The translations under genes were made by a program, and so were the position numbers. A stretch of 64,000 nt of DNA, taken from Microcystis wesenbergii NRERC-220. GTDB lineage: Bacteria; Cyanobacteriota; Cyanobacteriia; Cyanobacteriales; Microcystaceae. The notes under the pieces are model-generated. The model saw nothing but the letters and a program-made list of their open reading frames with translations. It was not told the DNA's origin and ran no database searches. Positions 12,788 to 26,877 of the stretch are shown here, piece after piece. The stretch is from contig NZ_JAVSJA010000001.1 of the NCBI RefSeq assembly GCF_032027425.1, positions 3,422,001 through 3,486,000 on the forward strand, given 5' to 3'. Position 1 is the first letter of the stretch; each line of letters opens with the position of its first letter.

Positions 12788-13486
12788 ATGAAAAGTCTTT
12801 TGCTAGGTGTTCAAAATTTGGAACTAAGCGATCGCACCGCCATGTATCTACTATTTAAAAATTACTTTAAAGGTGTAACTTGGGATGGGTTTCAAATTGA
12901 TCTAGAGCGCAAAAACTGGGTTTTATTGTTAAGAGATGAAACTAGCAATGCCCTGAAGGGATTTTCGACTCTTATGTTCTCTCAGCAAACTTATTTAGGA
13001 GAACAGATCGGTGTGGTATACTCAGGTGATACCATCGTTGATCCAAGTGCTTGGTCGAGTACCTCGTTACCGCGTAGCTGGATTGCTGCTGTCACTTTTG
13101 TGCACCGACAATATGCTGCCAATAAGCTATACTGGCTGTTAATCTGTTCTGGGTTTCGTACTTATCGCTTTCTCCCTACTTTTTGGCAAGATTTCTATCC
13201 CCGTTATAATGTTGAAACCCCTCCTAGTATTACCAATCTAATGGCAAGTCTGGCTAAAGAATACTATGGAAATTCTTACCAAGAAGCAACTGGTATCGTC
13301 CGCTTCCAACACCCTCAAATTCTCCTGGAGGGATTAGGGGAAATACCGGTGGGAAGACAGGCTAACCCCCACGTTCAGTTTTTTCAAAAAAAAAACCCTG
13401 GCTATCAACAGGGAGATGAGTTAGTCTGTTTGACTGAGATCTGCTATGATAATCTCACGGCGGCTGGAAGGCGGATGTGGCCTTGA
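12788..13486 (+). CDS. GNAT-like acyltransferase, first gene of the oxygenase cluster
   Basis: 232 residues from ATG 12788, with GAGG nine bases upstream. The N-terminal half reads like a GNAT fold: a beta strand WVLLLRDE, then KGFSTLMFSQQT, GVVYSGDTIVDP and LPRSWIAAVTFVHRQY. The equivalent of the acetyl-CoA loop is not a clean Q/RxxGxG/A, so acyl donor binding is inferred from fold pattern only. A second half with KLYWLLICSGFRTYRFLPTFW suggests an acyl- or other-chain-binding site. I know no characterised homologue. It leads a run of same-strand genes with short gaps, so it probably modifies the cluster's product by N- or O-acylation. Confidence 0.5.
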   Translation: MKSLLLGVQNLELSDRTAMYLLFKNYFKGVTWDGFQIDLERKNWVLLLRDETSNALKGFSTLMFSQQTYLGEQIGVVYSGDTIVDPSAWSSTSLPRSWIAAVTFVHRQYAANKLYWLLICSGFRTYRFLPTFWQDFYPRYNVETPPSITNLMASLAKEYYGNSYQEATGIVRFQHPQILLEGLGEIPVGRQANPHVQFFQKKNPGYQQGDELVCLTEICYDNLTAAGRRMWP

Positions 13487-13541
13487 CCTTATTATTGTAA
13501 CTCCTTTTTCTCGTTAGAACTGCCTCTGTCAAGTTATATTT

Positions 13542-14627
13542 ATGCTGTCTGATCACTCCTTCTCAAATTTTAACAATCCTGAGCAATTTATCCAAGGATG
13601 GTACTGGGCATTACCATCCAGAAAGTTAAAATTGGGCCAGGTAAAAGCTCTAACTTTGTTGGGTAGAAGTTTGGCAATTTATCGGGGAGAAAGCGGTCGG
13701 GTGATGGCGGTAGATGCCTATTGTCCCCATATGGGGGCCCATTTAGCAGAGGGGAAAGTAGAAGGTGATGGAATTCGCTGCTTTTTTCATAATTGGAAAT
13801 ATAATGAGCGGGGAATGTGTGTAGATATTCCTTCCCAAGAAAAACCTCTACCGGTGACTATTAAAACTTGGCAGACAGCAGAAAAATACGGAATGATTTG
13901 GGTTTGGGTGGGAGAAGATAAGCCAAGCCCTTTACCATACCTACCAGAGTTAGAAAATGTCAACTGTGATTATACATTGGGAACTCACTTTTTCAAAAAT
14001 TGCCACCCTAATGTATTACTTATTAACGCAATTGATGCTCATCATTTCAATACAGTACATCACCTACCCGTAAAAATTATCTTCTCTTCTCAAGAACTGA
14101 ACCCTAACGCTATTATCTTCAACAACACTACCCGAGGAGGGGAGGATTCTTGGTTAATTCGCCTGATTCGTCCTCTCTACCGCAACGAAGTTACTTATAG
14201 TATGTGTTACTGGTATGGGAGCAGCGGAACTGTGACCCTAGGGCCAGATTTTCTGCACTTTTACATTATCTTTGCCCTGCGAATGCTTGCAGGAGGAAAA
14301 ACCGAAGGACAAACAATTCTGGTAACTTCCCAACGGACTGGATTATCGGGATGGATTATGAATCGCGTTTTGCTATGGTTGACCCAGCAGGTTGGTAATT
14401 ACTTCGCCGGGGGAGATACCCAAGTATTTCAAACAATTCGGTTTGATTTGCGAACTCCCACCAAAGCAGATAGTTCTATCCTGCAATTCATTGAGCAGGT
14501 CAATCGCCAGCAAGCCTTAACCTGGGGAACTTGGAAGGCTGTCAGTCATCCCATGCCTCAAACGCCGGCCCCGTCTTACTCTGAACCCCCATTGATGGAA
14601 ACGGAAAAAAATGAAATTCCCAGGTAA
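13542..14627 (+). CDS. Rieske non-haem iron oxygenase 1
   Basis: 361 residues. The Rieske 2Fe-2S site is Cys61-x-His63 (CPHMGAH) with Cys80-x2-His83 (CFFHNW). The catalytic mononuclear iron site follows as IDAHHFNTVHH (Asp-x2-His-x4-His pattern). This is an alpha-type oxygenase subunit that would hydroxylate, desaturate or demethylate its substrate using electrons from a ferredoxin. It is clearly paralogous to the Rieske protein at 25632 (CPH(M/L)G, similar catalytic loop and C-terminal layout), which hints at two related steps or substrates. It overlaps the next gene by 17 bases. The substrate is unknown. Confidence 0.88.
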   Translation: MLSDHSFSNFNNPEQFIQGWYWALPSRKLKLGQVKALTLLGRSLAIYRGESGRVMAVDAYCPHMGAHLAEGKVEGDGIRCFFHNWKYNERGMCVDIPSQEKPLPVTIKTWQTAEKYGMIWVWVGEDKPSPLPYLPELENVNCDYTLGTHFFKNCHPNVLLINAIDAHHFNTVHHLPVKIIFSSQELNPNAIIFNNTTRGGEDSWLIRLIRPLYRNEVTYSMCYWYGSSGTVTLGPDFLHFYIIFALRMLAGGKTEGQTILVTSQRTGLSGWIMNRVLLWLTQQVGNYFAGGDTQVFQTIRFDLRTPTKADSSILQFIEQVNRQQALTWGTWKAVSHPMPQTPAPSYSEPPLMETEKNEIPR

Positions 14628-15534
14628 AATCGCCGGTTTTGACCTACCGCACCATAATTCCCCTGACCATTTACACCGGATACTAACAGCGGCATTGCCT
14701 CGGCAGAACAATTATGTTCTTTCTCAGAACTTAAATTATTGGGATGCTGAATTTTTCAATTTACATCGAGTCAAAGTTTTTGAACAATCTCCCGTGGATG
14801 AGCAATCTGCTATTTTGGAGCTAGTCGGCGGCGGCCTACTAGAAGAATCGTATTTTATTGAGAAGGCAGGCGTTGGCTACATGGCCAAAATGGTGTTGTT
14901 AGCAGAAACCGTTGAGGAACGAATGCTCTATGGGCTGTTTGCTGCTGATGAAGCCATCCACCTTAACCAGATAACCAATTTTTTACCGCAGCGGGAAATG
15001 ACTAATACAAACGATCCGTTTCTCTGCCTACTGTCAGAAGTGGCTGAAAGCTCGGATAAAACGGTATTGCTCTTTGTGCTACAAGTGGTGTTAGAAGGTT
15101 GGGGTTTGAGCCACTATCGACGTTTGGCGAAGGAATGTCGCCATCCTGAATTAGCAGAGATTTTTTCGGGCTTTTTAGAGGCTGAATCTCGCCATCATAG
15201 CACGGGAAATGCTTTGTTTAAACAGATTTCAGTGGCTAGCTCCAGTCAGGCAACAATTATTGATATATTAGCACAATTTTTATTTATGGTTCAAATGGGA
15301 CCCCAAAACGTACTGGCAGGAATTGAGCAAGTAAAAGGTCATTTAACCCGATCTCAAAAAGTCAAAATTCTCGAGGAGCTAGATACGGAAACCCATAGTG
15401 GTATTAGGTTGAAACTGATGCGATCGCTAATGAATATAAAATCAGCATATGCCATCTTTCAAGCTTTAGAAGAAAGGGGTGCTTTTCAACCTATTCCTGC
15501 CCATAAATGTGTTCTTCAATCTGCTGGTAATTAA
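14611..15534 (+). CDS. Ferritin-like diiron protein (HDO/AurF-like fold)
   Basis: 307 residues. Four helices carry a full set of diiron ligands in ferritin order: Glu79 (EESYFIEKAG), Glu114-x2-His117 (DEAIH), Glu162 (EGWGLSHY) and Glu192-x2-His195 (EAESRHH). This is the arrangement of ferritin-like oxygenases and haem-oxygenase-like diiron proteins that hydroxylate or N-oxygenate small molecules. It sits back-to-back with an AurF-like protein, overlapping the Rieske gene upstream and 7 bases from the gene downstream. That makes it part of the same transcript. The reaction is not known. Confidence 0.65.
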   Translation: MKFPGKIAGFDLPHHNSPDHLHRILTAALPRQNNYVLSQNLNYWDAEFFNLHRVKVFEQSPVDEQSAILELVGGGLLEESYFIEKAGVGYMAKMVLLAETVEERMLYGLFAADEAIHLNQITNFLPQREMTNTNDPFLCLLSEVAESSDKTVLLFVLQVVLEGWGLSHYRRLAKECRHPELAEIFSGFLEAESRHHSTGNALFKQISVASSSQATIIDILAQFLFMVQMGPQNVLAGIEQVKGHLTRSQKVKILEELDTETHSGIRLKLMRSLMNIKSAYAIFQALEERGAFQPIPAHKCVLQSAGN

Positions 15535-15541
15535 ATTAGAT

Positions 15542-16747
15542 ATGGAAAAACGTATTCAAGGCAAACTGCACATTAATTACAATCGGAATAAACAGCAAGA
15601 CCATACTGCTTTAATGGATGAAGTAGCTGCCAGCTTTCGCTATGAAGATTGTCAGAATGAATATTGGAATCCAGAGGAATTTTCTTTGCTCTACGGGACT
15701 CCTTTATGGGAGCAGTCTAGTCCCCATCAGCGCGTTATTTTAAACCAACTTTATTGGGTAGCTTATTACTCACAAATCGTCTCGGCTGAAATTGCTACTA
15801 TCTTTTTCAATCAGACCAGCGCGGCAGGACTTTATGCCCATGAAGATTTTCGTTTAATCTGCGATACGTTGGACTTAGAGTCATCCCAAGAACGGGCGCA
15901 TATTAATGCCTTTCGTACTATTGCCAAGCAGACCGAACAATCGCTATTCGGAAAACTTATCTTCACTTACCCAATGCGCGGACCTTTTACGGAAACGATG
16001 GTCTATGCTGAAACCAATACCCTTAAAACATGGTGGAAAAAACTTCAACTGCAATATTTTGGCCTGATTTCTGCCAATAATACCTTCTTGGCCTGTCAGT
16101 ATTTTACAGTGCGAGGGGTGCGGACTCTAAATGGGAAAATAGTCCAACATAAACTCAGCAATTATTATCAGAGATATTGCCCTCAAGAATCTGCTCCTAT
16201 CCCTGCTCAGGTTTCCCATTGTCACTTTCTAGATGAAAGCTTCCACTTCAATAGTTCGACAATTATCTCCCACGATGTTATTAACTGCTTGACACCGCCA
16301 ACTGCTTTTGAGCGATTGGTTGCCAATTTAGGACTCTGGGGATGTCAGCGGGATCATTTTCACTTTTCTGTGGCAATTAATGGAATTTTTTGGTACGATC
16401 CTGCGTTATATGAGAAAATTTATTATCTACTGCGATCGCCTATTTTTGGCCTGGGTCAAGGGGAGGCGCAGGAAATGATGGATTGTTGTTTTACTCAAGA
16501 GTCAGAGGGTTTACACCGTAGTTTTTTAACCCATCAAGAAGCCATGGCATCCTATAAGGTATATGTGGAAAAGCTGGATTATCTTTGGCCGTGCAATCGG
16601 GAAATGTCCCTGATGGCATCTAATTGTATCTCTGGATACTTGGCAATTCAAACGCGAGAATTACAAAGGTTTAAATATCGTCTAAGATACAGTTCGCTGA
16701 CAAGCGAGTGGAACAAACCACAAAGACACAAAGGACACAAAGATTAA
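15542..16747 (+). CDS. AurF-like diiron N-oxygenase family protein
   Basis: 401 residues from ATG 15542. The ligand pattern of p-aminobenzoate N-oxygenase AurF can be traced: Glu83, Glu117-x2-His120 (ERAHINAF) and His228-x3-Glu232-x2-His235 (HFLDESFHF). Spacing is nearly equal to AurF (E101, E136/H139, H223/E227/H230). The counterpart of AurF Glu196 is not obvious between residues 175 and 205, so one iron ligand may differ. AurF enzymes oxidise amines to hydroxylamines or nitro groups, so N-oxygenation is the leading guess. The last residues (NKPQRHKGHKD) come from a CAAAGACACAAAGG simple repeat and may be a recent extension. Confidence 0.6.
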   Translation: MEKRIQGKLHINYNRNKQQDHTALMDEVAASFRYEDCQNEYWNPEEFSLLYGTPLWEQSSPHQRVILNQLYWVAYYSQIVSAEIATIFFNQTSAAGLYAHEDFRLICDTLDLESSQERAHINAFRTIAKQTEQSLFGKLIFTYPMRGPFTETMVYAETNTLKTWWKKLQLQYFGLISANNTFLACQYFTVRGVRTLNGKIVQHKLSNYYQRYCPQESAPIPAQVSHCHFLDESFHFNSSTIISHDVINCLTPPTAFERLVANLGLWGCQRDHFHFSVAINGIFWYDPALYEKIYYLLRSPIFGLGQGEAQEMMDCCFTQESEGLHRSFLTHQEAMASYKVYVEKLDYLWPCNREMSLMASNCISGYLAIQTRELQRFKYRLRYSSLTSEWNKPQRHKGHKD

Positions 16748-16834
16748 TCGCTTCTATATAAGTTAAACTGGTCGCAACGCGCTCGCTACGCGAGATCACA
16801 CAAAGAACGAGAGAGCCTAAATTGGTTAGCTGTT

Positions 16835-17122
16835 ATGACTGATTTGTGTAGAATATCTTTTCCGTCTACTGATTTTGCTGCCATTATTTTGCCATGCCAT
16901 GAGAATTTATCTGAACATTTGACGGTTCATAATTCACCTGTTTTATTTGGCTGTCGGACTGGTATTTGTGGTACCTGTTTGGTGGAAGTCGTTGGCGATA
17001 TCCCCCCTCCCCAACCCGAGGAACGGGAAATATTGGAGAATTTAGCTCCCCATTATCCGCAGGTGCGGTTGGCCTGTCAGCTTGAGCTTACAGGTGATAT
17101 CGAGATGGTAGTCCTAAAATAG
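16835..17122 (+). CDS. Plant-type 2Fe-2S ferredoxin
   Basis: 95 residues with the 2Fe-2S ligand set Cys40-x4-Cys45-x2-Cys48 (GCRTGICGTC) and Cys81 (ACQLEL). It is divergent from photosynthetic PetF, with a shorter N-terminal part. It is the only electron carrier in the cluster. It is therefore the likely donor for the three Rieske proteins, with electrons from photosystem I or host ferredoxin-NADP reductase, because no dedicated reductase is present. A MITE separates it from the next gene. Confidence 0.85.
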   Translation: MTDLCRISFPSTDFAAIILPCHENLSEHLTVHNSPVLFGCRTGICGTCLVEVVGDIPPPQPEEREILENLAPHYPQVRLACQLELTGDIEMVVLK

Positions 17123-17175
17123 ACAAGGGCGAAATGGGAATGCGCTATGGTAGCCGGGGAAAGTTGGGGGGATAT

Positions 17176-17308
17176 CCAATACTGTTCAGTTAGTGTCACA
17201 AACTTAACACGAGGAAGGGTGTGGAGAGGGGATGGAATTAGCAAGGCTTTTGGTTTCCCCCGTCCCCTCTCGGCCACTTCACCATTTCTCTTATCTGAAC
17301 AGTGTTGG
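17176..17308. mobile_element. 133-bp MITE inside the oxygenase cluster
   Basis: Terminal inverted repeats CCAATACTGTTCAG and CTGAACAGTGTTGG (13 of 14 paired) bound the element. It is flanked by direct repeats GGGGGATAT (17167-17175) and GGGGGAGAT (17309-17317), an 8-of-9 match that fits a target duplication. It carries no gene and lies in the 317-bp gap between the ferredoxin and the second Rieske gene. The rest of that gap shows nothing else convincing. Confidence 0.8.
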
Positions 17309-17439
17309 GGGGGAGATCTTGTTTCGGGTAGGTAAATTGTGGGATGATAGGTTAATTGGAAAATTTGACAGGGGGCTGGGCCAGGACGGGCGGAATGTAG
17401 CCGCAAATCTTTATTAAGGGTCGGTTTTGAGAGTCTGCT

Positions 17440-18462
17440 ATGCAATTTCAGGATTTCTGGTATATTGTATCCCTCAGCAAACATTTAAAGGCTAACCAAG
17501 TATTAGCACGCACTGTTTTAGGAGAATGGCTGGCGATATTTCGTGGCAGTAATGGAGAACCAGTAGCGTTGCAGGATCGCTGTTTACATCGTAACAGTCG
17601 TTTGTCAGAGGGTAAAGTCAATCGTGGTATCTTGCAATGTCCCTACCACGGTTGGCTCTATGACGGGAATGGCCATGTTATTGCTGTCCCTGCTCAAGGA
17701 CCGAGCTTTAAATCTCCTCCTGGTTGTCGAGGGAAATGTTATGCCGTCAAGGAACGAGATGGTTATGTCTATGTCCGGTTGGCTGCAACCCCAAGGGTTG
17801 ACTTTGAACCTTTTCCTATGCCTCACTACGGACAGCCTGGCTGGGAAACAGTACGGGTAATTAATCGTTTTGCTAACGATGTTACCAACTGCGCCGAGAA
17901 CTTTATTGATATTCCCCATACCGCTTTTGTTCATCAGGGTATTTTTCGCTCCTCCCGACAAAAAAAGTTAGGGATGACTGTTAAACGCTGTGACGGTGCT
18001 GTTTTAGTGGAGTATCACCACGAAAGTAGTAATTTGGGATGGTACAGATATTTTCTTAATTTTAAAGGCACAGGGATTAAACATAGCGATCTCTTTTTTA
18101 TGCCTAATATTACCTGCGTGGAATATCAAATGGGAGGTAATCGCCATTTATTTATTACCAGTCAATCTATCCCCGAAACCCATAATTCAACTTTGGTTTA
18201 CACGGATATTACCTATAATTATGGCATCTGGAATAAATTAGCACTTCCCTTTGTGGGCTGGACTGCTCAACATATCATTCGCCAAGATGTGAAAATTTTA
18301 GGGGTTCAAGGAGAAGCTATCGCTAAATATGGCACAGAATTTTTCCCTACTCCTGCGGATACAATTCACCTTTTCGTAGAGTCAATTAGAGGGGCAATTG
18401 GTCGGGGGGAAGACCCGCGATTATTGCCCAATCAGACCGTTGAAGTTAACTTTTGGGTTTAA
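17440..18462 (+). CDS. Rieske non-haem iron oxygenase 2 (PaO/vanillate-demethylase-like)
   Basis: 340 residues. The Rieske cluster ligands are Cys48-x-His50 (RCLHRNSRLSEG) and Cys67-x2-His70 (CPYHGW). The catalytic site is ENFIDIPHTAFVH with Asp and two His. The wording of both motifs differs from the other two Rieske proteins of the cluster. It is closer to the pheophorbide a oxygenase/vanillate O-demethylase branch, which acts on aromatic, O-methyl or amine substrates. A long 5' region (317 bp with a MITE) precedes it, so it may start a second transcript. The stop lies 5 bases before the next start codon. Confidence 0.88.
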   Translation: MQFQDFWYIVSLSKHLKANQVLARTVLGEWLAIFRGSNGEPVALQDRCLHRNSRLSEGKVNRGILQCPYHGWLYDGNGHVIAVPAQGPSFKSPPGCRGKCYAVKERDGYVYVRLAATPRVDFEPFPMPHYGQPGWETVRVINRFANDVTNCAENFIDIPHTAFVHQGIFRSSRQKKLGMTVKRCDGAVLVEYHHESSNLGWYRYFLNFKGTGIKHSDLFFMPNITCVEYQMGGNRHLFITSQSIPETHNSTLVYTDITYNYGIWNKLALPFVGWTAQHIIRQDVKILGVQGEAIAKYGTEFFPTPADTIHLFVESIRGAIGRGEDPRLLPNQTVEVNFWV

Positions 18463-18467
18463 GGTCA

Positions 18468-19220
18468 ATGCTAGAAAAAAATTACTTACAAGTGATAACT
18501 TTGAGCAGCTTTATTATTTTAATTGCTTGGACGATTAGCCATAAGTCCTCCCGCGGTCATCTCCGAACTAAAACTTGTCAAGATTGGCTACTAGATGGCA
18601 GCGGATTAGCAATTCAAGGAATTTTTATGCCCTTACTACAAGCTCTGTTGTTTTCTGAGCTTTGCCAGCATTTGACAACTGATTATCAAGGCTGTCTTAA
18701 ACTATCACTAATTCCCTCCTTTATCCTTAGCTTTGTTATGGTTGATTATTTATACTACTGGAATCATCGTCTGTTACACCTTAAATTATTTTGGCCAGTT
18801 CATCAAGTCCATCATACCGTTAATCAAATGGATGTGTTCGGAACTTCTAGAAACACCATCTGGACAAGTTTGTTAATTATTTATTTATGGATAAACCCAT
18901 TATTTTTATATTTATTAGCTAAACCCACAGGCTATTTATTAGGAGTTAGTTTGACATCTGCCCTAGATTTATGGCGGCATAGCCGCTTGCTAATCGCCCC
19001 TAATAGCTGCTGGGCTAAAGTTCTCTCCCCTTGGTTAATCTTACCAGAGGATCATGCTTGGCATCATGGTAGGGAAACGAGGGACTATAACTATGGGGCT
19101 AACCTGAAAATTTGGGATAAGTTCCATGGAACCTATTATCAATGTCAAGAATCCCCTTCTGCCCTAGGGATTACTACTTCACTAAACTTAATGCAAAAAC
19201 TTTTTTTCCCATTCCTATGA
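18468..19220 (+). CDS. Fatty-acid hydroxylase/sterol-desaturase-superfamily membrane protein
   Basis: 250 residues from ATG 18468. Three histidine boxes that bind a membrane diiron centre are present: His100-RLL-His104, His112-QV-HH116 and His196-AW-HH200, plus His171. Hydrophobic segments at about 8-25, 50-70, 82-98, 132-165 and 185-195 embed it in the membrane. The family hydroxylates or desaturates lipids, sterols, carotenoids and, in the saxitoxin cluster, a small alkaloid (SxtD). Substrate here is unknown, but a hydrophobic or membrane-bound intermediate is likely. Its TGA overlaps the next ATG (ATGA), a sign of coupled translation. Confidence 0.85.
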   Translation: MLEKNYLQVITLSSFIILIAWTISHKSSRGHLRTKTCQDWLLDGSGLAIQGIFMPLLQALLFSELCQHLTTDYQGCLKLSLIPSFILSFVMVDYLYYWNHRLLHLKLFWPVHQVHHTVNQMDVFGTSRNTIWTSLLIIYLWINPLFLYLLAKPTGYLLGVSLTSALDLWRHSRLLIAPNSCWAKVLSPWLILPEDHAWHHGRETRDYNYGANLKIWDKFHGTYYQCQESPSALGITTSLNLMQKLFFPFL

Positions 19221-19822
19221 CTATTTTCGGTAGAGTCATTTCATTCTTTCCTGCCTTTATTTTGTTGCTGACTGGAGCAGCAATATTTTACTTTCTGGCT
19301 TCACCTAGTATTTTTAGCCTCCTAGCTGTGTTGCTGTCTATCTATGGGTTCCCGCCGTTGGTTTATCGCTTACATGAATATTTTTATCCTGTACGAGAGG
19401 GCATTAGTTATCTACAGATGAAAGAATATAGTCCTTGGTGGGGTAGCCATCAAATCCAGGTGATTTATATTGCTATTCCAGTGTTAGAAACACTATTAAG
19501 GTTGATTCCGGGGCTGTTTTCATGGTGGTTGCGATTATGGGGGGCAAAAGTGGGGAAAGATGTTTACTGGACCCCAGCCCTAGAAATTAGTGATCGCGGT
19601 TTTTTAGAAATTGGCGACCGGGTGGTTATCGGTCATCGTGTCGGAATTTATTCTCATATCATCAAGCCTCGCAAAGCTGATTTAATGTTATATGTCAAAA
19701 AAGTCAAAATTGGTAATAATGTCTTCATTGGGGCTGGCTCCCATCTAGCTCCTGGAGTAGTTCTTAATGATGGTAAATTCTTAACTTTAGCCACTGACCT
19801 CTATCCCAATCAAAAGATATAA
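19217..19822 (+). CDS. Membrane-anchored hexapeptide-repeat acyltransferase
   Basis: 201 residues starting in the ATGA overlap. Two membrane segments (about 8-27 and 31-48) are followed by a short linker. A C-terminal left-handed beta-helix then has hexapeptide turns (EISDRGFLEIGDRVVIGHRVGIYSHI, KIGNNVFIGAGSHLAPGVVL). The His in GHRVGIYSH could be the catalytic base. The protein is like the acyltransferase segments found next to AMP-forming or NRPS-like enzymes. With the GH3-type ligase three bases downstream it probably adds an acyl group at the membrane, which is an inference. Confidence 0.65.
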   Translation: MTIFGRVISFFPAFILLLTGAAIFYFLASPSIFSLLAVLLSIYGFPPLVYRLHEYFYPVREGISYLQMKEYSPWWGSHQIQVIYIAIPVLETLLRLIPGLFSWWLRLWGAKVGKDVYWTPALEISDRGFLEIGDRVVIGHRVGIYSHIIKPRKADLMLYVKKVKIGNNVFIGAGSHLAPGVVLNDGKFLTLATDLYPNQKI

Positions 19823-19824
19823 TA

Positions 19825-21354
19825 ATGCGTCCAATTATTCAGCTATTTGGAAAAATACTTGCCCCCAATGCCCAGCGGTTTCAGCAAGCATTGAAACGTC
19901 CAGATTTAACCCAGAGATGGGTACAGAAAGAAATCGTTGCTCGTCTCATTAATAGTGCCTACGGTCGAGCATTGGGAATTAATTCAATAAAAGATTGGTG
20001 GCGAGTTCCCCTAGTAGATTATGAAGATATTATCCCTTGGTTAAAGCCAACAGTTCAACATCATAAATATCAACAAATTTCCCTGACTCCTGAACCCATT
20101 CTATTTTTTGAGAAAACCTCTGGTAGTAGCGGGGCGATGAAATTGATTCCTTATACTCAATCTTTGCGCCGCTCATTTAACCAGATGTTCTGTGTCTGGG
20201 CCTATGATTTAATCGTGAACGGACCTGACTTTTCTACAGGAAAGATTTACGCTTGTATTTCACCAAGATTAAATGAAGCTGATAGTCAAAACTTACAGAA
20301 TGATTTAGATTACTTAGATGGCTGGTTGCGCTTTTTTTTGCGTCCCTGGTTATTGCTGCCCGAACAACTTAATAACTTGAATAATATCCCAGCTTTTAAG
20401 CATCAATTAGCCCTAGCTTTACTCAAGGCTGAGGCATTGGAGATAATTTCCATTTGGAGTCCCACCTTTCTCCAAATCCTTTTAAAATATATTCAGGAGA
20501 ATCAGCAGTTATTGCAAGCAGAATTACAGCAGCGAATTTCACTTAATCGACTAAAACTACTCAGCGAAAGTCCTATTCCTTGGCAACAAATATGGCCAAG
20601 CTTGAAACTAATTTCTTGCTGGGATAGTGCTAATGCAGCAGTTCAAGCTCAAGGGTTGCGCTCGCAGTTTCCGGGGGTATTAGTTCAAGGAAAGGGGTTA
20701 TTAGCCACAGAAGCACCGATGACCATCCCTTTGATTAAAGCTAGGGGATATGTACCAGTTCTGGATGAAGTGTTTTTCGAGTTCGAGGATAACCAGGGTG
20801 TTCTCTTAAGTTTAACCGAACTTACCATTGGTCAAGAATACAGACTCATTTTGTCCCAAAAGGGGGGATTATATCGTTATCGCATAGGCGATTGCGTCCG
20901 CGTCACCCACTACTATCAAAACACTCCCTGTTTAGAATTTCTGGGAAGATATCAAAGCCTGAGCGATTTAGTCGGGGAAAAATTGTCAGAAACCTTTGTC
21001 AATAATGCTCTGACTAGGTTGAACTTACCATCAACCAATTTTAAAAGCTTGGTGCCGGTGGCCGCCCCCCCCCATTATCTTCTCTTGCTAGATAGGGCTG
21101 AAGAAACCCCAGCCATGATTGCTCAAAAGCTAGATAGTATCTTATCAGAGTCTTATCATTACCGGAGGGCGCGGGGGCTTGGTCAGCTTGAACCGCCAGA
21201 AGTTTTCATCTCCCCTCAAATCCCTGAACTATTGGTTTCCTATCACATCCGCACTGGAAGTATTTGGGGGGGTATCAAGCATCCAATGCTGGCCACATCA
21301 CCCCTTAGCACCCAACTTTTACGAGAGATCAGAAAAATGTATAATCCTGAGTAG
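19825..21354 (+). CDS. GH3-type acyl-adenylating amide synthetase
   Basis: 509 residues of the ANL-superfamily GH3 group. Plant GH3 enzymes activate a carboxylic acid with ATP and couple it to an amino acid. Visible motifs: the phosphate-binding loop KTSGSSGAMKLIPYT (97-111), a LLATEAPMT segment (292-300) corresponding to motif II, and the YRYRIGD hinge/adenylate motif (350-356) followed by LEFLGR. The family length of about 500-600 residues fits. No carrier-protein gene is present nearby, so the activated acid is probably transferred directly to an amine. In bacteria such genes occur in scattered natural-product loci. It is a strong hint that the product contains an amide. Confidence 0.85.
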   Translation: MRPIIQLFGKILAPNAQRFQQALKRPDLTQRWVQKEIVARLINSAYGRALGINSIKDWWRVPLVDYEDIIPWLKPTVQHHKYQQISLTPEPILFFEKTSGSSGAMKLIPYTQSLRRSFNQMFCVWAYDLIVNGPDFSTGKIYACISPRLNEADSQNLQNDLDYLDGWLRFFLRPWLLLPEQLNNLNNIPAFKHQLALALLKAEALEIISIWSPTFLQILLKYIQENQQLLQAELQQRISLNRLKLLSESPIPWQQIWPSLKLISCWDSANAAVQAQGLRSQFPGVLVQGKGLLATEAPMTIPLIKARGYVPVLDEVFFEFEDNQGVLLSLTELTIGQEYRLILSQKGGLYRYRIGDCVRVTHYYQNTPCLEFLGRYQSLSDLVGEKLSETFVNNALTRLNLPSTNFKSLVPVAAPPHYLLLLDRAEETPAMIAQKLDSILSESYHYRRARGLGQLEPPEVFISPQIPELLVSYHIRTGSIWGGIKHPMLATSPLSTQLLREIRKMYNPE

Positions 21355-21403
21355 CAGAAAAAATTTTCGTTAAGTGCCATCCAATTTAAATGTTTTTAAT
21401 ATA

Positions 21404-22039
21404 ATGAAACAAAAATTTACCAACATCTACAAATTGGCTCAACTACTTAGTATTGTTCTGTTAGCCATAGTAATTGGGAATTTCCCCTCCTCTGCTCTAG
21501 CAGATGTCGGCCAGGGGGACATCGACGCAATTATTCGCACCCGAGAAATTGCCTTAGAAGCCCTAAACACTCGTAATTTTACCAAAATTGACCCCTATCT
21601 GCACCCCCAGTTCATCATCACAACAGTTGATAACCAAGTTTTTCACACCACCTCTGAGTTTGAAAAGTATTGGAATCAACAGTTTTCCAGTACGATTGAA
21701 AATATAAAAATGCAACTACAAGGGGAGACCATCAGAACCTTTCTCTCCCCAGAAATAGATGTGGCGGCGGGGGGAGCAATAACCACTTTCTCTTTCAAGG
21801 ATGGTAAGTCGGCTAATATGACTTTGCGCTGGACAGCGGTATTACAAAAATTAGAGGACAAATGGATGATTCAATCATTGCATTTCTCCTCTAATCTGCT
21901 GGATAATCCAGTATTGAATGCTGCTCGACAATTAAATAAAACCCTAGGGGTTGCAGCGGGGTTAGGCGGCTTTTTACTGGGGGCAGCTACCATGGTAATA
22001 TTAAATCGTAGAACTAAGCGTCGAGCTACAATAGTATAG
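21404..22039 (+). CDS. SnoaL/DUF4440-like protein with signal sequence and C-terminal anchor
   Basis: 211 residues from ATG 21404. A signal peptide (KLAQLLSIVLLAIVIG...SSALA) is followed by a cone-shaped NTF2/SnoaL-like domain (GDIDAIIRTREIALEALNTRNFTKIDPYLHPQF ... WTAVLQKLEDKWMIQSLHFSSN). A membrane helix and a basic tail (LGGFLLGAATMVILNRRTKRR) follow. The domain is therefore on the lumenal or periplasmic side. SnoaL-like folds serve as cyclases, isomerases or just binding proteins. It sits between the ligase and the glycosyltransferase. The role in the cluster is not known. Confidence 0.6.
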   Translation: MKQKFTNIYKLAQLLSIVLLAIVIGNFPSSALADVGQGDIDAIIRTREIALEALNTRNFTKIDPYLHPQFIITTVDNQVFHTTSEFEKYWNQQFSSTIENIKMQLQGETIRTFLSPEIDVAAGGAITTFSFKDGKSANMTLRWTAVLQKLEDKWMIQSLHFSSNLLDNPVLNAARQLNKTLGVAAGLGGFLLGAATMVILNRRTKRRATIV

Positions 22040-22047
22040 CAATTCAA

Positions 22048-23346
22048 ATGAAAATTAATACTGTTCATCCCAGTACCAATATTAGCTTTAACCGCTATCT
22101 TCGTCTGAAAGCTATCCTAGTAGTTCTAATAGTTTGGAGCGGAGTGAGTCTGGTACACTGGTGGCCAGTAACTCAGGGGTTTATGTTGGTTTTAATAACT
22201 ATATTGACCATACAAACTCTAAGAATGTTAATAGCAAAACCAGTTAATTTTGTGGTTGAAAGTAATAATTATCTTCCCCTAGTCTCCATTTTAGTTCCTG
22301 CCAAAAATGAAAGTGCAGTCCTGACTAATTTGGTGGAAAGCTTAGGGGAATTAGATTATCCAAGTCATTGTTTAGATTTTTGGATTATTGACGATGGTAG
22401 TACTGATGAAACACCGCAAATCTTAAAGGAAATGCTAACTAAATTGCCATCTTTACAAGTTTATCGGCGAGAAGCTAAAGGTGGTAAATCAGGGGCTTTA
22501 AATGCAGTATTGCCCTACACGCGAGGAGAGATTATTCTCGTTTGTGATGCTGATGCTCAGTTACCGGCTGACTTGCTGCGGCAAACAGTACCTCTGTTCC
22601 AAAAAAAAGGGATTGGTGCAGTACAAGTACGAAAGGAAATTGCTAATACTAATACTAATTTCTTAACCCGTTGTCAGCAAATGGAAATGTGCTGTGATAG
22701 TTTTCTTCAGACCCATCGCCTTGCTATTGGCGGAATGTGTGAACTGCGCGGCAATGGGATGCTAGTTAAGCGGGATTTCTTAGAAAAGTGTCAAGGCTGG
22801 AATGAAAACACAGTCACCGATGATTTAGATCTTTGTTTTAAACTTTATCTAGTAGGTGCTGAGATTGAGTTTGTGATAGTTACATCTATTCGGGAAGAAG
22901 GAGTAACTACCGCGCAATCCCTCTGGCTTCAACGTTGTCGTTGGGCGGAGGGCGGGTATCAGCGTTACCTAGATTATTTTCCACAAATTTTTACTTTAGG
23001 TTGGGCTAAAGAAATTGATTTAATTTTATTTTTTTTGTTACAGTTTCTACTTCCCCTTGGACTTATAGCCGATTTATTTTGGACAATATTTTATGACCAA
23101 TACCCAGTTTTGTTGCCACTTCAAGTATTACTAAGTATTATTTTAACAATTGCTTTTATGGTCGGACTTTATCAATTTCAGGGTTTACGAGGATGGTCTT
23201 TAGTTTGGGGAACTATGCAAGGTTCTATCTACATGATACATTGGATTCCTGTCATGATTGTAACCACCTTGAAAATGTGTCTGCAAAAGCAGCACTCGCC
23301 TTGGATTAAAACCGAGCATCGGGGTTTAAATACTTACGGATCATAA
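22048..23346 (+). CDS. Processive family 2 glycosyltransferase, membrane-bound
   Basis: 432 residues. The GT-A motifs are intact: DDGSTDET (Asp115/116), DADA (167-169) and TDDLDL (257-262). The QRCRW motif (295-299) marks processive cellulose/hyaluronan/poly-GlcNAc synthase-like enzymes. Two N-terminal membrane segments (about 22-60) and three or more C-terminal ones surround the cytosolic domain. It would use a UDP-sugar to glycosylate a lipid or build a short glycan, so a glycolipid-type product is conceivable. The next gene starts 3 bases after its stop. Confidence 0.85.
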   Translation: MKINTVHPSTNISFNRYLRLKAILVVLIVWSGVSLVHWWPVTQGFMLVLITILTIQTLRMLIAKPVNFVVESNNYLPLVSILVPAKNESAVLTNLVESLGELDYPSHCLDFWIIDDGSTDETPQILKEMLTKLPSLQVYRREAKGGKSGALNAVLPYTRGEIILVCDADAQLPADLLRQTVPLFQKKGIGAVQVRKEIANTNTNFLTRCQQMEMCCDSFLQTHRLAIGGMCELRGNGMLVKRDFLEKCQGWNENTVTDDLDLCFKLYLVGAEIEFVIVTSIREEGVTTAQSLWLQRCRWAEGGYQRYLDYFPQIFTLGWAKEIDLILFFLLQFLLPLGLIADLFWTIFYDQYPVLLPLQVLLSIILTIAFMVGLYQFQGLRGWSLVWGTMQGSIYMIHWIPVMIVTTLKMCLQKQHSPWIKTEHRGLNTYGS

Positions 23347-23349
23347 ATT

Positions 23350-25056
23350 ATGTTAGATCTACTAATTAAAAATGGATTAATTTTTGATGGCTTATCTTCT
23401 CCTGCCATGGTCGGAGATATTGGCATTCAAGAAGGTAAGATTGTCGCCATTGCTCCTGGCTTAAATATCCCTGCACTTGAAGTAGTAGATGCCACTGGGT
23501 TGTGGGTAACACCGGGATTTATTGATATTCATACCCACTACGATTTAGAATTAGAAATTGCGCCGGGATTGAGTGAATCAGTCCGCCATGGAGTGACCAG
23601 CGTAGTCATTGGTAACTGTAGCCTATCCATTGCTATCGGTGAACCGCAAATGTTAGCAGATATTTTTCAAAGAGTAGAAACAATCTCCCATCAGTTAATT
23701 GCAAAATGGCTACAAAAGTCGATTGATTGGCAAACACCGACGGAATATTTACAGCATTTACAAAAGTTATCTCTTGGGGCCAATGTCGCTCCCATGTTTG
23801 GACACAGCGCTCTACGCGCCCATGTAATGGGATTGGAACGGAGCTTAACTGCTCAACCAACTAAAATTGAACTAAAAATTATGCAGCAGATAGCCACAGA
23901 TGCTTTAGAAGCAGGTTTTCTGGGCATTTCCATTGATATGTTTCCTTGGCATCGTATGACTGGAAAGTGGCGAGGTTATACCATTCCTTCTCAACACGCA
24001 AAATTTCAAGAATATGCCATGTTAGCTGCTCTATGCAGGCAAAAAGATCGCGTTTTTCAAGTTACCCCTAACCTACAACGGCTCTCTTCTTTCCTTGACA
24101 TTCTGCGGCTGGGTTCAGGAATTGGCAAAAAACAACTGCGTTTAACAATTCTCTCGGCTTTAGATGCTGTCCACCAGCGCCAACTCTGGCGCATATTTGC
24201 TCCACTGCTTTTTATTTGGAATCGGTTATTAGGTGGAAATGTCCGTTTTCAAACGTTAACACAACCGTTTACCATTTTTTCCGATGGACCGGTTACTCCC
24301 TTATTTGAAGAATTCCCTACCGGCGCAGAACTCAATAGTTGTCAGTCAAGAAAAGAGCGAGAAGAACTATGGCAATCTCAAGGTTTCCGACACAAATTTT
24401 GCCAAGAATGGACCAGTAATTGGCGTAAATCCTTCCATCGCCGTTTAGATCTGATAGAAGTTATCCGTTGTCCAGAAATAAGTTGGTATGGTCTGAGTTT
24501 TGCCGAAATTGCTCGTCAAAAACAACAACAACCAGTAGATTTATTTATCGACGCACTCCAACAATATGACACAGATTTACGCTGGGTGGCTACAGGTGCA
24601 AATGATCGCCCCATCCCGCGTTTAGCCCTGATGCGGCATCCCTATATCTTAGCCGGTTTTACTGACGCTGGAGCCCATGTCCGCAATCTAGGCTATTATG
24701 ATGGCGCTCTGTCTTTGCTCAAACAAGCAGTAGCCACTAAGTTCCTTTCCCCTGAAGCTGCTATTAGCCGCGTTACGGGAGAACCAGCACAATGGTTTCG
24801 CCTGGATACAGGTATCCTCAAAGTCGGCGCCAAAGCTGATATAGTGTTACTTGAACCCCATTCTCTCCATCAGCATATCAGTCCTCAAGTGGAAATATCA
24901 GATCCAATCTTGGACGGTGAATTGCGTATGGTCAAGCGCGGCTCGCAGGAGATTGTGCAAGCGGTTTATATTAATGGAGTTCCGGTTGTTAGTGGAGGTA
25001 AGGTGAAGGATATCTTGGGAAAAACCAAGTTGGGAACAGTTTTATTTCCTCGCTGA
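23350..25056 (+). CDS. Amidohydrolase, N-acyl-D-amino-acid deacylase type
   Basis: 568 residues of the amidohydrolase superfamily. The N-terminus (LLIKNGLIFDGLSSPAMVGDIGI) and the metal-binding IDIHTHYDLE are followed by VIGNCS. The D-aminoacylase-like C-terminus has GFTDAGAHVRNLGYYDGALSLLK and GILKVGAKADIVLLEP. These enzymes remove an acyl group from an N-acyl D-amino acid. An amide-forming GH3 ligase in the same cluster makes a protect-then-deprotect logic, or trimming of the product, plausible. The family has close relatives acting on other cyclic amides, so the exact substrate is open. Confidence 0.75.
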   Translation: MLDLLIKNGLIFDGLSSPAMVGDIGIQEGKIVAIAPGLNIPALEVVDATGLWVTPGFIDIHTHYDLELEIAPGLSESVRHGVTSVVIGNCSLSIAIGEPQMLADIFQRVETISHQLIAKWLQKSIDWQTPTEYLQHLQKLSLGANVAPMFGHSALRAHVMGLERSLTAQPTKIELKIMQQIATDALEAGFLGISIDMFPWHRMTGKWRGYTIPSQHAKFQEYAMLAALCRQKDRVFQVTPNLQRLSSFLDILRLGSGIGKKQLRLTILSALDAVHQRQLWRIFAPLLFIWNRLLGGNVRFQTLTQPFTIFSDGPVTPLFEEFPTGAELNSCQSRKEREELWQSQGFRHKFCQEWTSNWRKSFHRRLDLIEVIRCPEISWYGLSFAEIARQKQQQPVDLFIDALQQYDTDLRWVATGANDRPIPRLALMRHPYILAGFTDAGAHVRNLGYYDGALSLLKQAVATKFLSPEAAISRVTGEPAQWFRLDTGILKVGAKADIVLLEPHSLHQHISPQVEISDPILDGELRMVKRGSQEIVQAVYINGVPVVSGGKVKDILGKTKLGTVLFPR

Positions 25057-25208
25057 ACCTGATACATATATAGCGATCCTATTTAGGTTGTAAACTTACC
25101 GGTAGCCACAGCTGGTCGGCAGGAGAATTGTTTCTATTTCATTGAGAATTGCCAGACAAGAGAAAATAATTAAATCGTGCTTGATGTGAGGAGAAACCGC
25201 TAGAGCTT

Positions 25209-25616
25209 ATGAGTAAACTAAATTATGGAAATAATCCAAAATTAATCAATCGAATTAATAACCAAATTTTGGCGCATCCGTTTACAGATTATTGGGATAT
25301 TTTTGTGATCAAACATCAACAGCCAATTAATATTACTTTACACATTCTAGGAATATTCTTTTTCTATAGTTTGATATTTTCTGTTTGGCGATCGCAAAAT
25401 TTTTGGCTGCTGTTGGGTTTACCTCTAACTCAGGTGCTGGGATTAACCGGACATCTTTTATTTGAGCGCAGCCATATTGATTTACAAGATGCAGTATTTT
25501 CCTGGCGAGCTTCTTATTGTTTAGGTAAAATGTTATTGAGAGTTTTGATGGGTAAATATCGAGATGATATTCAAGAGAGAAAAGCAATCTTACAAAATTA
25601 TCAATCTACTACTTGA
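25209..25616 (+). CDS. DUF962/Mpo1-like membrane protein
   Basis: 135 residues from ATG 25209. The pattern HPFTDYWDIFVIKHQQPIN (His36, Asn41), LHILG (His45) and TGHLLFER (His82, Glu86) fits the DUF962/Mpo1 family. The yeast member of that family is an iron-dependent dioxygenase that shortens 2-hydroxy fatty acids by one carbon. Two or three membrane segments (about 41-60, 65-82) fit that family. It sits 15 bases from a Rieske gene and would add a further iron/O2 enzyme to the cluster. Family assignment is from motif resemblance and needs a profile search. Confidence 0.5.
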   Translation: MSKLNYGNNPKLINRINNQILAHPFTDYWDIFVIKHQQPINITLHILGIFFFYSLIFSVWRSQNFWLLLGLPLTQVLGLTGHLLFERSHIDLQDAVFSWRASYCLGKMLLRVLMGKYRDDIQERKAILQNYQSTT

Positions 25617-25631
25617 CTGGAATAGATACCT

Positions 25632-26639
25632 ATGCAAATTTTTAATAATTGGGATGTAATAGCTAAGGGCTGGTATATAGCTTGCTCTAGTCAAGAAATA
25701 CCTAAAAAGAAAGCAAAATCTCTAGAATTGTGCGGACAAAGAATTGTTATTTTCCGCGGGGAGGACGGGCAAGTGCGGGCTTTAGATGCTTACTGTCCTC
25801 ATCTAGGAACCGATTTGGGAATTGGAGAGGTTAAAGGCAATTTTCTTCGTTGTGCTTTCCATCATTGGACTTTTGATGAAAGTGGTCTTTGTCAACACAT
25901 TCCCTGTCAATCAGAAATTCCTGCTCAAGCTAGAGTACAAGCTTATGCAACGGAGGAAAAATATGGATTTATCTGGATTTATCCTGATGCTGAAGCACCA
26001 GAAGAAGTACCTAACTTTGATGAACTAAAAGACAAAGAAATTCTCACACAAACTGATCGCTCTTTTACTAGAACTTGCCATCATCATATCTGTATGATGA
26101 ATGGGATTGATATTCAACATTTAAAAACCATACATCATTTAGATATCAAAATGGAACTATCACTAAATTTCCCCAGTGAAATCGGTACACAAATTGACTT
26201 TACCATCAGGAGACAATTTCCACAAACTACTTGGAGAGAAAGGTTAGGTCAAAGATTTCTGGGTGCTACATATCAGTATTCTATGCGATATGCTTATGGC
26301 TGTATTGGTTTATTAAAAATGATGGAAAACGTGCAGCTTTTCCCCCCCCTATATATGCTCTATGCTTATACCCCCATAGCACCTGCCAAGACAAGAATTC
26401 AGCCGATTTATATAACAGAAAAACGCCCCGGTATTAGGGGGTATCTTCTTAGTACCCTGTTACTGCTCTGGACTCGATTAGCTTATTATATGCTCAGGGA
26501 TGAAGACGGCAAAATTTACGATAATATTCAATTTAAGCCAAAATTGCTCCTGAGCATGGATCAACCATTAGCTCAATATATAGAGTACGTCAACCAGTTA
26601 GAACCGTCTCGATGGTCAACGGAGGCAGTGGCCATGTAA
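25632..26639 (+). CDS. Rieske non-haem iron oxygenase 3, paralogue of oxygenase 1
   Basis: 335 residues. Rieske ligands Cys55-x-His57 (CPHLGTD) and Cys74-x2-His77 (CAFHHW). The catalytic loop is NGIDIQHLKTIHH. It aligns along its length with the Rieske protein at 13542: the same order of GWY(I/W)A, LDAYCPH(L/M)G, RCxFH(N/H)W, IDxxHxxTxHH, a GxxGxxxxxxLLxWT-like segment and a final QFIE/YIEYVN. That indicates a duplication inside the cluster. It is the last cluster gene on this strand. A low-complexity gap (26640-26877) with CTTCCCACTTCCCAC repeats follows. Confidence 0.88.
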   Translation: MQIFNNWDVIAKGWYIACSSQEIPKKKAKSLELCGQRIVIFRGEDGQVRALDAYCPHLGTDLGIGEVKGNFLRCAFHHWTFDESGLCQHIPCQSEIPAQARVQAYATEEKYGFIWIYPDAEAPEEVPNFDELKDKEILTQTDRSFTRTCHHHICMMNGIDIQHLKTIHHLDIKMELSLNFPSEIGTQIDFTIRRQFPQTTWRERLGQRFLGATYQYSMRYAYGCIGLLKMMENVQLFPPLYMLYAYTPIAPAKTRIQPIYITEKRPGIRGYLLSTLLLLWTRLAYYMLRDEDGKIYDNIQFKPKLLLSMDQPLAQYIEYVNQLEPSRWSTEAVAM

Positions 26640-26877
26640 CAAGTTACACCGTCAAGGATGAAAGCGGTAGCCTCCCCGCCCCGCTGCTTCCCACACTTCC
26701 CACTTCCTACTTCCCACTTTCAAGGTAGGAGGAGGAGGTTGGGAAGAGGCTCTCCGTCAACTCTTGAGGAGTCGTGCGTTTCATTTTTGAGTTGGCGCAA
26801 TAATTCCCCTTTCGCGTTCCTTTCCAGTTTCCACGCTTCGTTTACCTGACAGAATTGAGAGTAATTTTGAGCAAGCG

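Follow-up and report, generated by a model that had tools for sequence, protein, structure and literature searches.

A fourteen-gene, oxygenase-rich cluster of the 'Rieske-containing' CylC class in Microcystis wesenbergii that possibly makes a membrane-associated lipid

Enzymes of the CylC type that have been characterised so far use fatty acyl chains (PMC8406957, PMC12101540). In the 2021 survey by Eusebio et al. (PMC8406957), the 'Rieske-containing' CylC clusters were the largest group (36/95), with the product left unassigned and with intermediates or derivatives of fatty-acid metabolism proposed as substrates of these CylC homologues. In bacterial lipid making, the GH3-like enzyme OlsH forms N-acyl ornithine (PMC12493201). 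Here, we describe a cluster of the already described orphan kind in a window of 64,000 nucleotides (the whole stretch of DNA that was analysed) from Microcystis wesenbergii NRERC-220. The initial annotation of the locus had given its product as unknown, and the 2021 survey assigns none to this cluster class.

The cluster consists of 14 ORFs, all on the + strand, which the ORF and Pfam check of the window placed between 12773/12788 and 26639, with intergenic gaps of -79 to 317 bp (<60 bp in 10/13). The first four encode a GNAT-fold N-acyltransferase-like protein, so named from its predicted fold (12788..13486; ATG at 12788 in an ORF that opens with TTG at 12773), Rieske oxygenase 1 (13542..14627; Pfam Rieske, 1.3e-22), a ferritin-like diiron protein recognised from conserved motifs and a structure model (14611..15534) and a CylC-like dimetal-carboxylate protein (15542..16747), whose ORF opens with GTG at 15479 and whose start at 15542 was placed from homologues. 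They are followed by a plant-type [2Fe-2S] ferredoxin, the probable electron donor (16835..17122; Fer2, 7.6e-9), Rieske oxygenase 2 of the VanA_C type (17440..18462; Rieske 1.1e-23, VanA_C 1.1e-7), a membrane protein of the FA_hydroxylase superfamily with three histidine boxes (18453..19220; 7.6e-25) and a membrane hexapeptide-repeat acyltransferase-like protein (19217..19822; Hexapep), the ORF of which opens at 19142 and the start of which was taken from homologues in a 20-sequence alignment. The remaining six are a GH3-type acyl-adenylating amide/ester ligase (19825..21354; GH3, GH3_M and GH3_C), a SnoaL-like protein whose hydropathy shows a signal-like stretch at the N terminus and a TM-like one at the C terminus (21374..22039; SnoaL_3), a membrane GT2 glycosyltransferase identified by Pfam (22048..23346), an amidohydrolase (23350..25056; Amidohydro_3), an Mpo1-like (DUF962) protein (25209..25616; 7.5e-8) and Rieske oxygenase 3 (25632..26639; 1.2e-23).

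Pfam matches above the curated cut-offs covered Rieske (three proteins), Fer2, FA_hydroxylase, the hexapeptide repeat, the three GH3 domains, SnoaL_3, GT2, Amidohydro_3 and the Mpo1-like family; the scan gave no match for two of the 14 proteins (12788..13486 and 14611..15534), and the protein at 15542..16747 matched AurF below the cut-off (20.0 vs 29.6 bits). The same-strand 14-gene cluster and the families named for it in the initial annotation are thus present on Pfam or fold evidence, and its figure of up to seven iron/O2 enzymes is correct when families are counted. Its statement that the 14 proteins include no PKS, NRPS, terpene synthase or transporter agrees with Pfam, in which none of these was matched; a search of the 14 genes and six scanned flanking genes for carrier proteins and fatty acyl-AMP ligases likewise gave no Pfam match. 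The next gene, encoding a Na+/H+ antiporter (26878), was excluded from the set because the DNA shared with cluster-free congeners starts at 26851; the same comparison did not reveal where the Microcystis insertion begins on its left side. Rfam (gathering cut-off) and tRNA scans of the window returned nothing, and the counts of promoter-like (38 vs 32.9 expected) and terminator-like sites (12 vs 15.3 expected) were uninformative.

The locus shares with the 'Rieske-containing' class (PMC8406957) its three Rieske oxygenases (two to four in the class), a single CylC homologue, the sterol-desaturase/FA-hydroxylase protein found in most members (18453-19220) and the lack of an adjoining carrier protein or fatty acyl-AMP ligase. 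The class is described chiefly from Nostocales and Oscillatoriales, which is not a strict criterion; the window is from Microcystis and shows a rotated order. GH3 is not mentioned in the main text of Eusebio et al. 2021 (PMC8406957), and one literature search on GH3 together with Rieske enzymes returned no paper.

The set was widely conserved. We found 44 loci with GH3, among which the fetched stretch held a CylC homologue in 27 and all nine core genes in 23, and this recurrence on one stretch argues for a single co-conserved biosynthetic cluster. The core was on one stretch in loci from many genera and also occurred in further classes within the phylum, most relatives being Nostoc and Oscillatoriales. 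The gene order recurred; that of the window is a rotation of the common order. As to the genes being scattered in relatives, which the initial annotation had regarded as fatal to its reading, the fetched stretches of 17/44 GH3 loci lacked a CylC gene, but whole-genome searches gave one CylC match at E<=1e-100 in 27/27 GH3-bearing genomes, picked from the 44 loci, and in two added ones. In a survey of 386 genomes from the phylum, the CylC clade (E<1e-170) occurred in 20, and each of these also had GH3 (E<=1e-60) and the GNAT-fold gene (E<=1e-15), linked or unlinked; Fisher p values for co-occurrence with the clade, uncorrected for phylogeny, were 1.7e-31 for GH3 and 7.5e-27 for GNAT. The thresholds for GH3, GNAT and the amidohydrolase were fixed before the runs, the limits of the CylC clade being drawn after the scores were seen. 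GH3-like genes were commoner at E<=0.001 (17/59 relatives). GH3 was absent from 10/10 congeneric genomes in the sample of relatives, which might suggest a chance gathering of the fourteen genes within a single Microcystis lineage, although M. wesenbergii FACHB-1317 carries the whole set in the nearest locus (97-100%). With the core on a single stretch in more than half of the GH3 loci, across many genera and in other classes, chance assembly is hardly conceivable and is refuted by conservation.

Motifs were counted in filtered homologues, i.e. those whose ORF is complete in the locus and free of internal stops, reaches 60% or more of the query length and has an identity above 45-60%, set gene by gene; alignments A1-A4 drew 17, 17, 16 and 20 of these. 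The CylC-like protein, the only CylC match in its genome, has intact QExxH and HxxDExxH motifs (Q137-E138-H141 and H249-D252-E253-H256) and is 30% identical to a homologue set among FAAL/ACP/NRPS-PKS genes. An AurF N-oxygenase was ruled out by QExxH in place of DExxH and by the sub-threshold AurF score, so that the 'AurF-like' label of the initial annotation is replaced by CylC-like. In the alignment, the ninth active-site position is Gln223, where Glu is expected of a CylC-type halogenase; Gln occupied it in 47/47 distinct sequences of the clade and Glu in 15/15 other homologues. The 550-bit split of the clade was chosen once the scores were known, and L226 and L227, which scored below it, were placed in the clade by gene context.

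The Gln signature, the company of other oxygenases and the absence of a carrier protein from the cluster would all suit a CylC homologue that has become a C-H hydroxylase or desaturase within a still lipid-like, purely oxidative pathway. Retention of the halogenase-type QExxH speaks against this, and a small Gln subset of CylC homologues is already on record; we regard such a conversion as a real but unlikely possibility. Should the homologue instead be a functional halogenase, the product could be a glycolipid that carries chlorine and bears some resemblance to the nostochlorosides. Chlorinated glycolipids occur in Nostoc punctiforme (PMC10849952), and the other eight active-site residues were kept in 45/46 high-scoring rows, the remaining row having unread residues. 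This second option appears improbable in view of the Gln signature of the clade, the loss of chlorination in NocO when the matching Glu is changed to Ala, and the lack of PKS or carrier genes in the cluster by Pfam.

The GNAT-fold protein had no match in Pfam, NCBIfam or a PDB profile search; its AlphaFold2 model (pLDDT 81) matched GNAT and N-myristoyltransferase folds in Foldseek (best E 1.5e-5, TM only ~0.4), which suggests a GNAT assignment at the level of the fold. For the ferritin-like protein, the model was a helical bundle (pLDDT 77.5) with ferritin-like and R2-like proteins as top Foldseek matches, none at E<=0.001 (best 7e-3), and its motifs DExxH and ExRHH were conserved in 25/25 and 24/25 filtered homologues. 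In PDB profile searches, neither the GNAT nor the CylC-like alignment found a match, and the ferritin-like alignment had matches at E>=0.06 only. The ferredoxin C4C2C..C motif was present in 29/29 filtered homologues and the GH3 motifs ATEA, YR.GD and the adenylation loop pattern in 44/44, 41/44 and 36/44, respectively. The idea that the FA_hydroxylase is a paralogue of a glucolipid epimerase, an enzyme termed uncharacterised in one paper, was unsupported, weak second matches appearing in only 2/11 genomes.

In 9 further genomes with GNAT and without the CylC clade, GH3 lay in the same fetched stretch in 8/9. Three GNAT- and GH3-bearing genomes without CylC gave no photosystem or COX1 match, and radical SAM genes adjoin their loci; several of the radical SAM genes near GNAT-GH3 loci have a B12-binding domain. 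It is conceivable, if rather doubtful, that GNAT and GH3, with or without the hexapeptide protein, form an old scaffold core of the phylum that predates the oxygenases and which members with O2 metabolism oxidise with Rieske, diiron and FA_hydroxylase enzymes and others (those without a photosystem or COX1 match) with radical SAM enzymes, the Gln marking a diiron enzyme of new reactivity. Chlorophyll synthesis offers a parallel, in that oxygen-dependent and oxygen-independent cyclases substitute for one another.

The accessory genes were less constant. The SnoaL-GT2-amidohydrolase-Mpo1 block was absent or unlinked in many core-bearing genomes, so glycosylation of the product may be optional. 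The amidohydrolase (E<=1e-100) occurred in 11/386 genomes, all of which carry the core and which make up 11/20 CylC-clade genomes. An orthologue of the cluster GT2 was found in 20/27 genomes, while a second GT2, 44-49% identical to it in the same genomes, was found in 27/27. For the cluster GT2, DxD and QxxRW were conserved in 20/20 filtered homologues and TDD in 18/20. In a midpoint-rooted tree with a long-branch warning, which held no named MgdA and left out the L224 GT2, the cluster GT2 formed its own group (84/97) beside the ubiquitous copy (100/99). By its ubiquity and its hydropathy, which gives the TM layout published for MgdA, the second GT2 is probably the glucolipid synthase MgdA.

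Our tentative preference, held at somewhat less than even confidence, is that the 14 genes form one pathway of the 'Rieske-containing' CylC class which makes a membrane-associated lipid. This reading rests on the co-occurrence of GNAT and GH3 with the CylC clade, the recurring gene order and the grouping of the GT2 beside an MgdA-like GT2. It draws further on the OlsH reaction (PMC12493201), on the fatty-acid-type substrates proposed by Eusebio et al. (PMC8406957) and on the sole NCBIfam matches of GH3 and the FA_hydroxylase, both ornithine-lipid enzymes far under their cut-offs (OlsH, NF052613, 26 bits vs 620; OlsE, NF052566, 71 bits vs 475). Judged by family, the GNAT-fold enzyme would acylate an amine, and GH3 would adenylate a carboxylate and couple it with an amine or alcohol. 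A further acyl group would come from the hexapeptide protein, and the GT2 would transfer a sugar, for which a UDP-sugar is the probable donor. Oxidation of the chain or of the head would fall to the Rieske, two diiron and FA_hydroxylase-type proteins, perhaps joined by the Mpo1-like one, with electrons carried by the ferredoxin; either part may also be chlorinated by the CylC homologue; the amidohydrolase could trim off an N-acyl group, and the SnoaL protein may act outside the cytoplasm. The product would best be read as a membrane lipid that is acylated, glycosylated and multiply oxidised, probably contains an amide and is perhaps chlorinated; the heavily oxidised, amide-containing, perhaps glycosylated or lipid-like metabolite suggested in the initial annotation fits these families.

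The Rieske proteins bear on a different reading. All three have the CxH...CxxH motif on inspection of the window proteins, with N..D..H....H in 23/23 (Rieske 1) and 19/19 (Rieske 3) and [NE]..D..H....H in 32/32 (Rieske 2) filtered homologues, and a sterol monooxygenase model as best NCBIfam match (69-79 bits of a 600-bit cut-off). By sequence search, the closest solved structures were 3-ketosteroid hydroxylase (KshA, 2e-25), SxtDIOX (2e-22) and SxtT (6.5e-22) for Rieske 1, and SxtDIOX (2e-19), closely followed by SxtT, dicamba demethylase (DdmC) and NdmA, for Rieske 2. KshA, SxtDIOX, DdmC and NdmA act on rings or N/O-methyl groups, plant GH3 enzymes accept aromatic or terpenoid acids, and the commonness of ring-type substrates among GH3 and Rieske enzymes counts against a lipid. 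A non-lipid product in which an aromatic or terpenoid acid is bound as an amide, with its rings oxidised by the Rieske enzymes and the GT2 and acyltransferases supplying just decoration, nevertheless seems improbable: no Pfam match in the cluster points to synthesis of such a unit, several of the 14 proteins appear membrane-embedded by hydropathy, and the known CylC-type substrates are acyl chains. The likeness to saxitoxin tailoring drawn in the initial annotation survives, weakly supported at most, as family similarity: the Rieske family is common to both and, among solved structures, SxtDIOX comes closest to Rieske 2, but KshA is nearer to Rieske 1, DdmC and NdmA are nearly as near to Rieske 2, and no SxtA-type starter gene is indicated, the 14 proteins having no PKS-like Pfam match.

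With the membrane lipid as the preferred reading, the data yield testable predictions on the product class and the scaffold-making enzymes; the Gln change can discriminate halogenation from another C-H reaction, and the short GNAT-GH3 loci are simpler systems for finding the scaffold. The nostochloroside (ngl) cluster of Nostoc punctiforme (PMC10849952) resembles this reading in its CylC homologue and glycosylated fatty chain but has PKS and CylK genes, whereas the window cluster has no PKS or carrier by Pfam. The OlsH/OlsI ornithine lipid pathway (PMC12493201) also sets a bacterial GH3 in lipid making, and a distant OlsE-type hydroxylase is present here; however, the scores lie far under the family cut-offs and no alpha/beta-hydrolase Pfam match among the 14 could stand in for OlsI. 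Like the monoglucosyldiacylglycerol synthase MgdA (PMC3916417), the cluster GT2 is a membrane GT2 enzyme that has TM stretches at both termini, yet it falls in a separate group and lacks the ubiquity of the presumed MgdA. To what is described for these systems, our analysis adds a GH3 ligase and a GNAT-fold protein tied to the CylC class across the phylum, a clade-wide Gln at the CylC active site, a GT2 grouping beside a probable MgdA, a rotated gene order with GH3 missing from all sampled congeners, and GNAT and GH3 genes that persist without CylC beside radical SAM genes.

The cluster is real and well conserved, and belongs to a class already published as orphan. All 14 same-strand genes of the initial annotation were recovered as ORFs on the + strand (12773/12788 to 26639), separated by intergenic gaps of -79 to 317 bp, and the families proposed for them were borne out by Pfam matches to three Rieske proteins (Rsk1, 13542..14627; Rsk2, 17440..18462; Rsk3, 25632..26639), a ferredoxin (Fdx, 16835..17122), FA_hydroxylase (FAH, 18453..19220), a hexapeptide protein (hexa, 19217..19822), a three-domain GH3 (19825..21354), SnoaL_3 (21374..22039), GT2 (22048..23346), Amidohydro_3 (AmHy, 23350..25056) and an Mpo1-like protein (25209..25616). 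The CylC-like protein (15542..16747), originally described as AurF-like, has a sub-cut-off Pfam AurF match. Two ORFs were without any match in the Pfam search: 12788-13486 (GNAT), whose AlphaFold2 model shows a GNAT-type fold with a TM of about 0.4, hence fold class only, and 14611-15534 (fer), modelled as a helical bundle with best fold-search matches that were ferritin-like or R2-like, none reaching E 0.001. Metal-ligand motifs are conserved among the homologues of fer.

Forty-four loci were found when genome contigs were scanned with GH3; they come from Microcystis wesenbergii, Nostoc, Planktothrix, Microseira, Calothrix and other taxa. By set identity thresholds, the CylC gene lay within 27 of the 44 fetched stretches; all nine core genes, from GNAT to GH3, were present in 23, and GH3 stood alone in seven. 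The commonest order was Rsk3-GNAT-Rsk1-fer-CylC-Fdx-Rsk2-FAH-hexa-GH3, with Rsk3 behind CylC in some loci and inserted ORFs frequent. Around the GT2 of other genomes, a (SnoaL-)GT2-AmHy-Mpo1-Rsk3 block continued into the core in 11 of 19 stretches (counted over rows, and joined with the matching GH3 locus of that genome where needed); in the other eight the block was only partly visible, without a junction to the core. The window and M. wesenbergii FACHB-1317 have the blocks swapped (GNAT to GH3, then SnoaL to Rsk3), a rotation of the common order, and one locus (L167) shows a third, partly inverted arrangement.

Searching 386 phylum genomes with the CylC profile gave 32 matches at E ≤ 0.001. 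Twenty of these, at E < 1e-170, represent the clade to which this cluster belongs; the others are a match at 4e-80 and 11 weaker ones. All 20 CylC-clade genomes were included among those with GH3 (22/386, E ≤ 1e-60) and GNAT (29/386, E ≤ 1e-15; a fragment in G119), and every one of the 11 genomes with the amidohydrolase (E ≤ 1e-100) fell within the 20. Fisher p values against the CylC clade, uncorrected for phylogeny, were 1.7e-31 for GH3, 7.5e-27 for GNAT and 2.7e-16 for the amidohydrolase. In a whole-genome sample of 29 (27 GH3-bearing genomes chosen from the 44 loci, partly overlapping with the 386, and two added), each genome had a single CylC match at E ≤ 1e-100, interrupted by a stop codon in five (G061, G069, G073, G079 and G081).

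Four cyanobacterial plasmids carry homologues of the CylC-like protein at 26-32% identity. That of Planktothrix agardhii (30%) comes after the genes of a fatty acyl-AMP ligase and an acyl carrier protein and after a small hypothetical gene, and stands before an NRPS/PKS gene, a setting reported for CylC homologues by Eusebio et al. (PMC8406957). Nine active-site residues, QExxH and HxxDExxH among them, have been named for CylC-type halogenases (2025, PMC12101540). Their counterparts in the window protein are Q137 E138 xx H141, H249 xx D252 E253 xx H256 and E104; by alignment, the ninth position is Gln223, not Glu. The alignment comprised 63 rows, being 62 distinct locus stretches and the window ORF, which is thus present twice. 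All 46 rows above 550 bits have Gln at the ninth position (one row with unread residues in the second motif), as do the lower-scoring L226 and L227 rows from Rieske-type loci; the remaining 15, two of them pieces, have Glu. Over residues 60-380, 47 distinct sequences have Gln and 15 have Glu. Replacement of this glutamate by Gln is reported for a small subset of CylC homologues, and an Ala variant at each of the nine residues of NocO, including E252, abolished chlorination (PMC12101540). Judging from alignment and spacing, Gln223 would be the counterpart of NocO E252.

GNAT was found without the CylC clade in nine of its 29 genomes (G048, G095, G130, G133, G136, G152, G172, G263 and G357). GH3 lay in the same fetched stretch in eight of the nine, as two pieces in L213; from the G136 stretch, which has hexapeptide and ferritin-like genes, GH3 is absent. 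In G152, G172 and G357 the GNAT-GH3 pair adjoins several radical SAM genes, with a hexapeptide gene also adjoining in G172 and G357, not G152. All four neighbours checked with Pfam were radical SAM proteins, three with a B12-binding match (one slightly sub-cut-off); BLAST was the basis for assigning the others, those of L216 included. Neither Photo_RC nor COX1 was matched in searches of these three genomes and G095, the absence of both families being only a sign of an anaerobe. A fatty acid desaturase occurs at the locus in G263 (Pfam) and G048 (BLAST); the G263 locus also has a Rieske gene, and a distant CylC homologue lies elsewhere in that genome. Near the pair in five loci (L209, L210, L211, L215 and L216) is a protein family of 308-383 aa that is GNAT-like by eye only; its two scanned members were without Pfam match.

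The core also occurs in three genomes of another class: it is complete in G088, split over two stretches in G099 and fragmentary in G119. All three gave COX1 matches but no Photo_RC match. In the class of G172, GNAT was found at E ≤ 1e-15 in 8 of 269 genomes. Of five loci fetched from that class, three (L223, L224 and L226, the last cut) have CylC, Rieske and amidohydrolase genes at 48-53%, with SnoaL-like (30-32%) and GT2-like (33-35%) genes; L227 has the core without the SnoaL/GT2/amidohydrolase block, and L225 is a short piece.

A GT2 orthologue at 64-99% was present in 20 of 27 genomes (with an internal stop in G081) and a second GT2 at 44-49% in all 27. In a tree of 24 proteins, midpoint-rooted for drawing only, the window GT2 and 11 orthologues formed one group (84/97) beside 10 ubiquitous copies (100/99); two proteins from the class of G172 fell outside both groups on long branches, for which the tool warns of false joins. 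Hydropathy peaks of the ubiquitous copies lie mostly near 53-93, 355-380 and 387-407, and the transmembrane helices of MgdA at 46-66, 68-88, 361-381, 389-409 and 435-455 (PMC3916417); a counterpart of the last reached the threshold used in only 2/10 copies. We infer that the ubiquitous GT2 is MgdA.

Within Microcystis, GH3 was found in none of the ten congeneric genomes of the relatives sample; FACHB-1317 has the full set in copies 97-100% identical to the window. Sequence leftwards of the Na+/H+ antiporter was compared for seven of the ten congeners; all seven match the window from 26851 rightwards and show no blastn match in 12788-26850 (E ≤ 1e-10, at least 80 bp; L199 extends just ~200 bp leftwards). 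The cluster is therefore an acquired or differentially kept island with its right edge near 26851. Directly upstream is a DDE transposase gene (11074-12198), probably a later insertion since it has no match between the corresponding genes of FACHB-1317. Before it, at 8730-11043, an AAA_15/AAA_21 ATPase gene and an overlapping ORF without Pfam match could, at a guess, form a pair with an accessory or defence role. A protein of 961 aa at 59111-61996 has six stretches of Big_12 Ig-like domains, together with RTX calcium-binding repeats; G+C is 59% in 60001-62000 and 45-47% in adjoining 2-kb windows. In L169 and L170, from two genomes of the family to which the window belongs, GNAT-Rsk1-fer-CylC stands beside proteins of roughly 1580 and 831 aa, the rest not being nearby; these may be the 'PriA-containing' loci, similar to Rieske-containing ones, reported from Synechocystis by Eusebio et al. 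(PMC8406957).

The pathway we propose is built on family placement. The strongest point for a lipid product is that a lipid-type GT2 and an FA_hydroxylase occur together with enzymes of acyl-transfer type and a CylC homologue; the weakest points of the proposal are that GH3 and the hydroxylase are distant from characterised members and that the sugar block (SnoaL-GT2-AmHy-Mpo1) is optional. What the analysis adds is the coupling of GH3 with GNAT, the Gln signature, the relation between the two GT2 groups, the presence of the core in genomes that gave no photosystem match, and the radical SAM neighbours.

'Rieske-containing' clusters make up 36 of 95 CylC-homologue clusters in Eusebio et al. 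(2021, PMC8406957), have two to four Rieske proteins, a single CylC homologue and mostly a sterol-desaturase-family protein, and come chiefly from Nostocales and Oscillatoriales, with the product given as not known; GH3 is not mentioned in the main text. No paper on their product was among the matches listed from the open literature. The excerpted text of PMC11264947 names CylC homologues in Microcystis, but no Rieske-type cluster of this sort. The cluster of the nostochlorosides, chlorinated glycolipids, is a different one and carries PKS and CylK genes (PMC10849952). The window matches the Rieske-containing class of PMC8406957 in gene content, although its host stands outside the usual orders.
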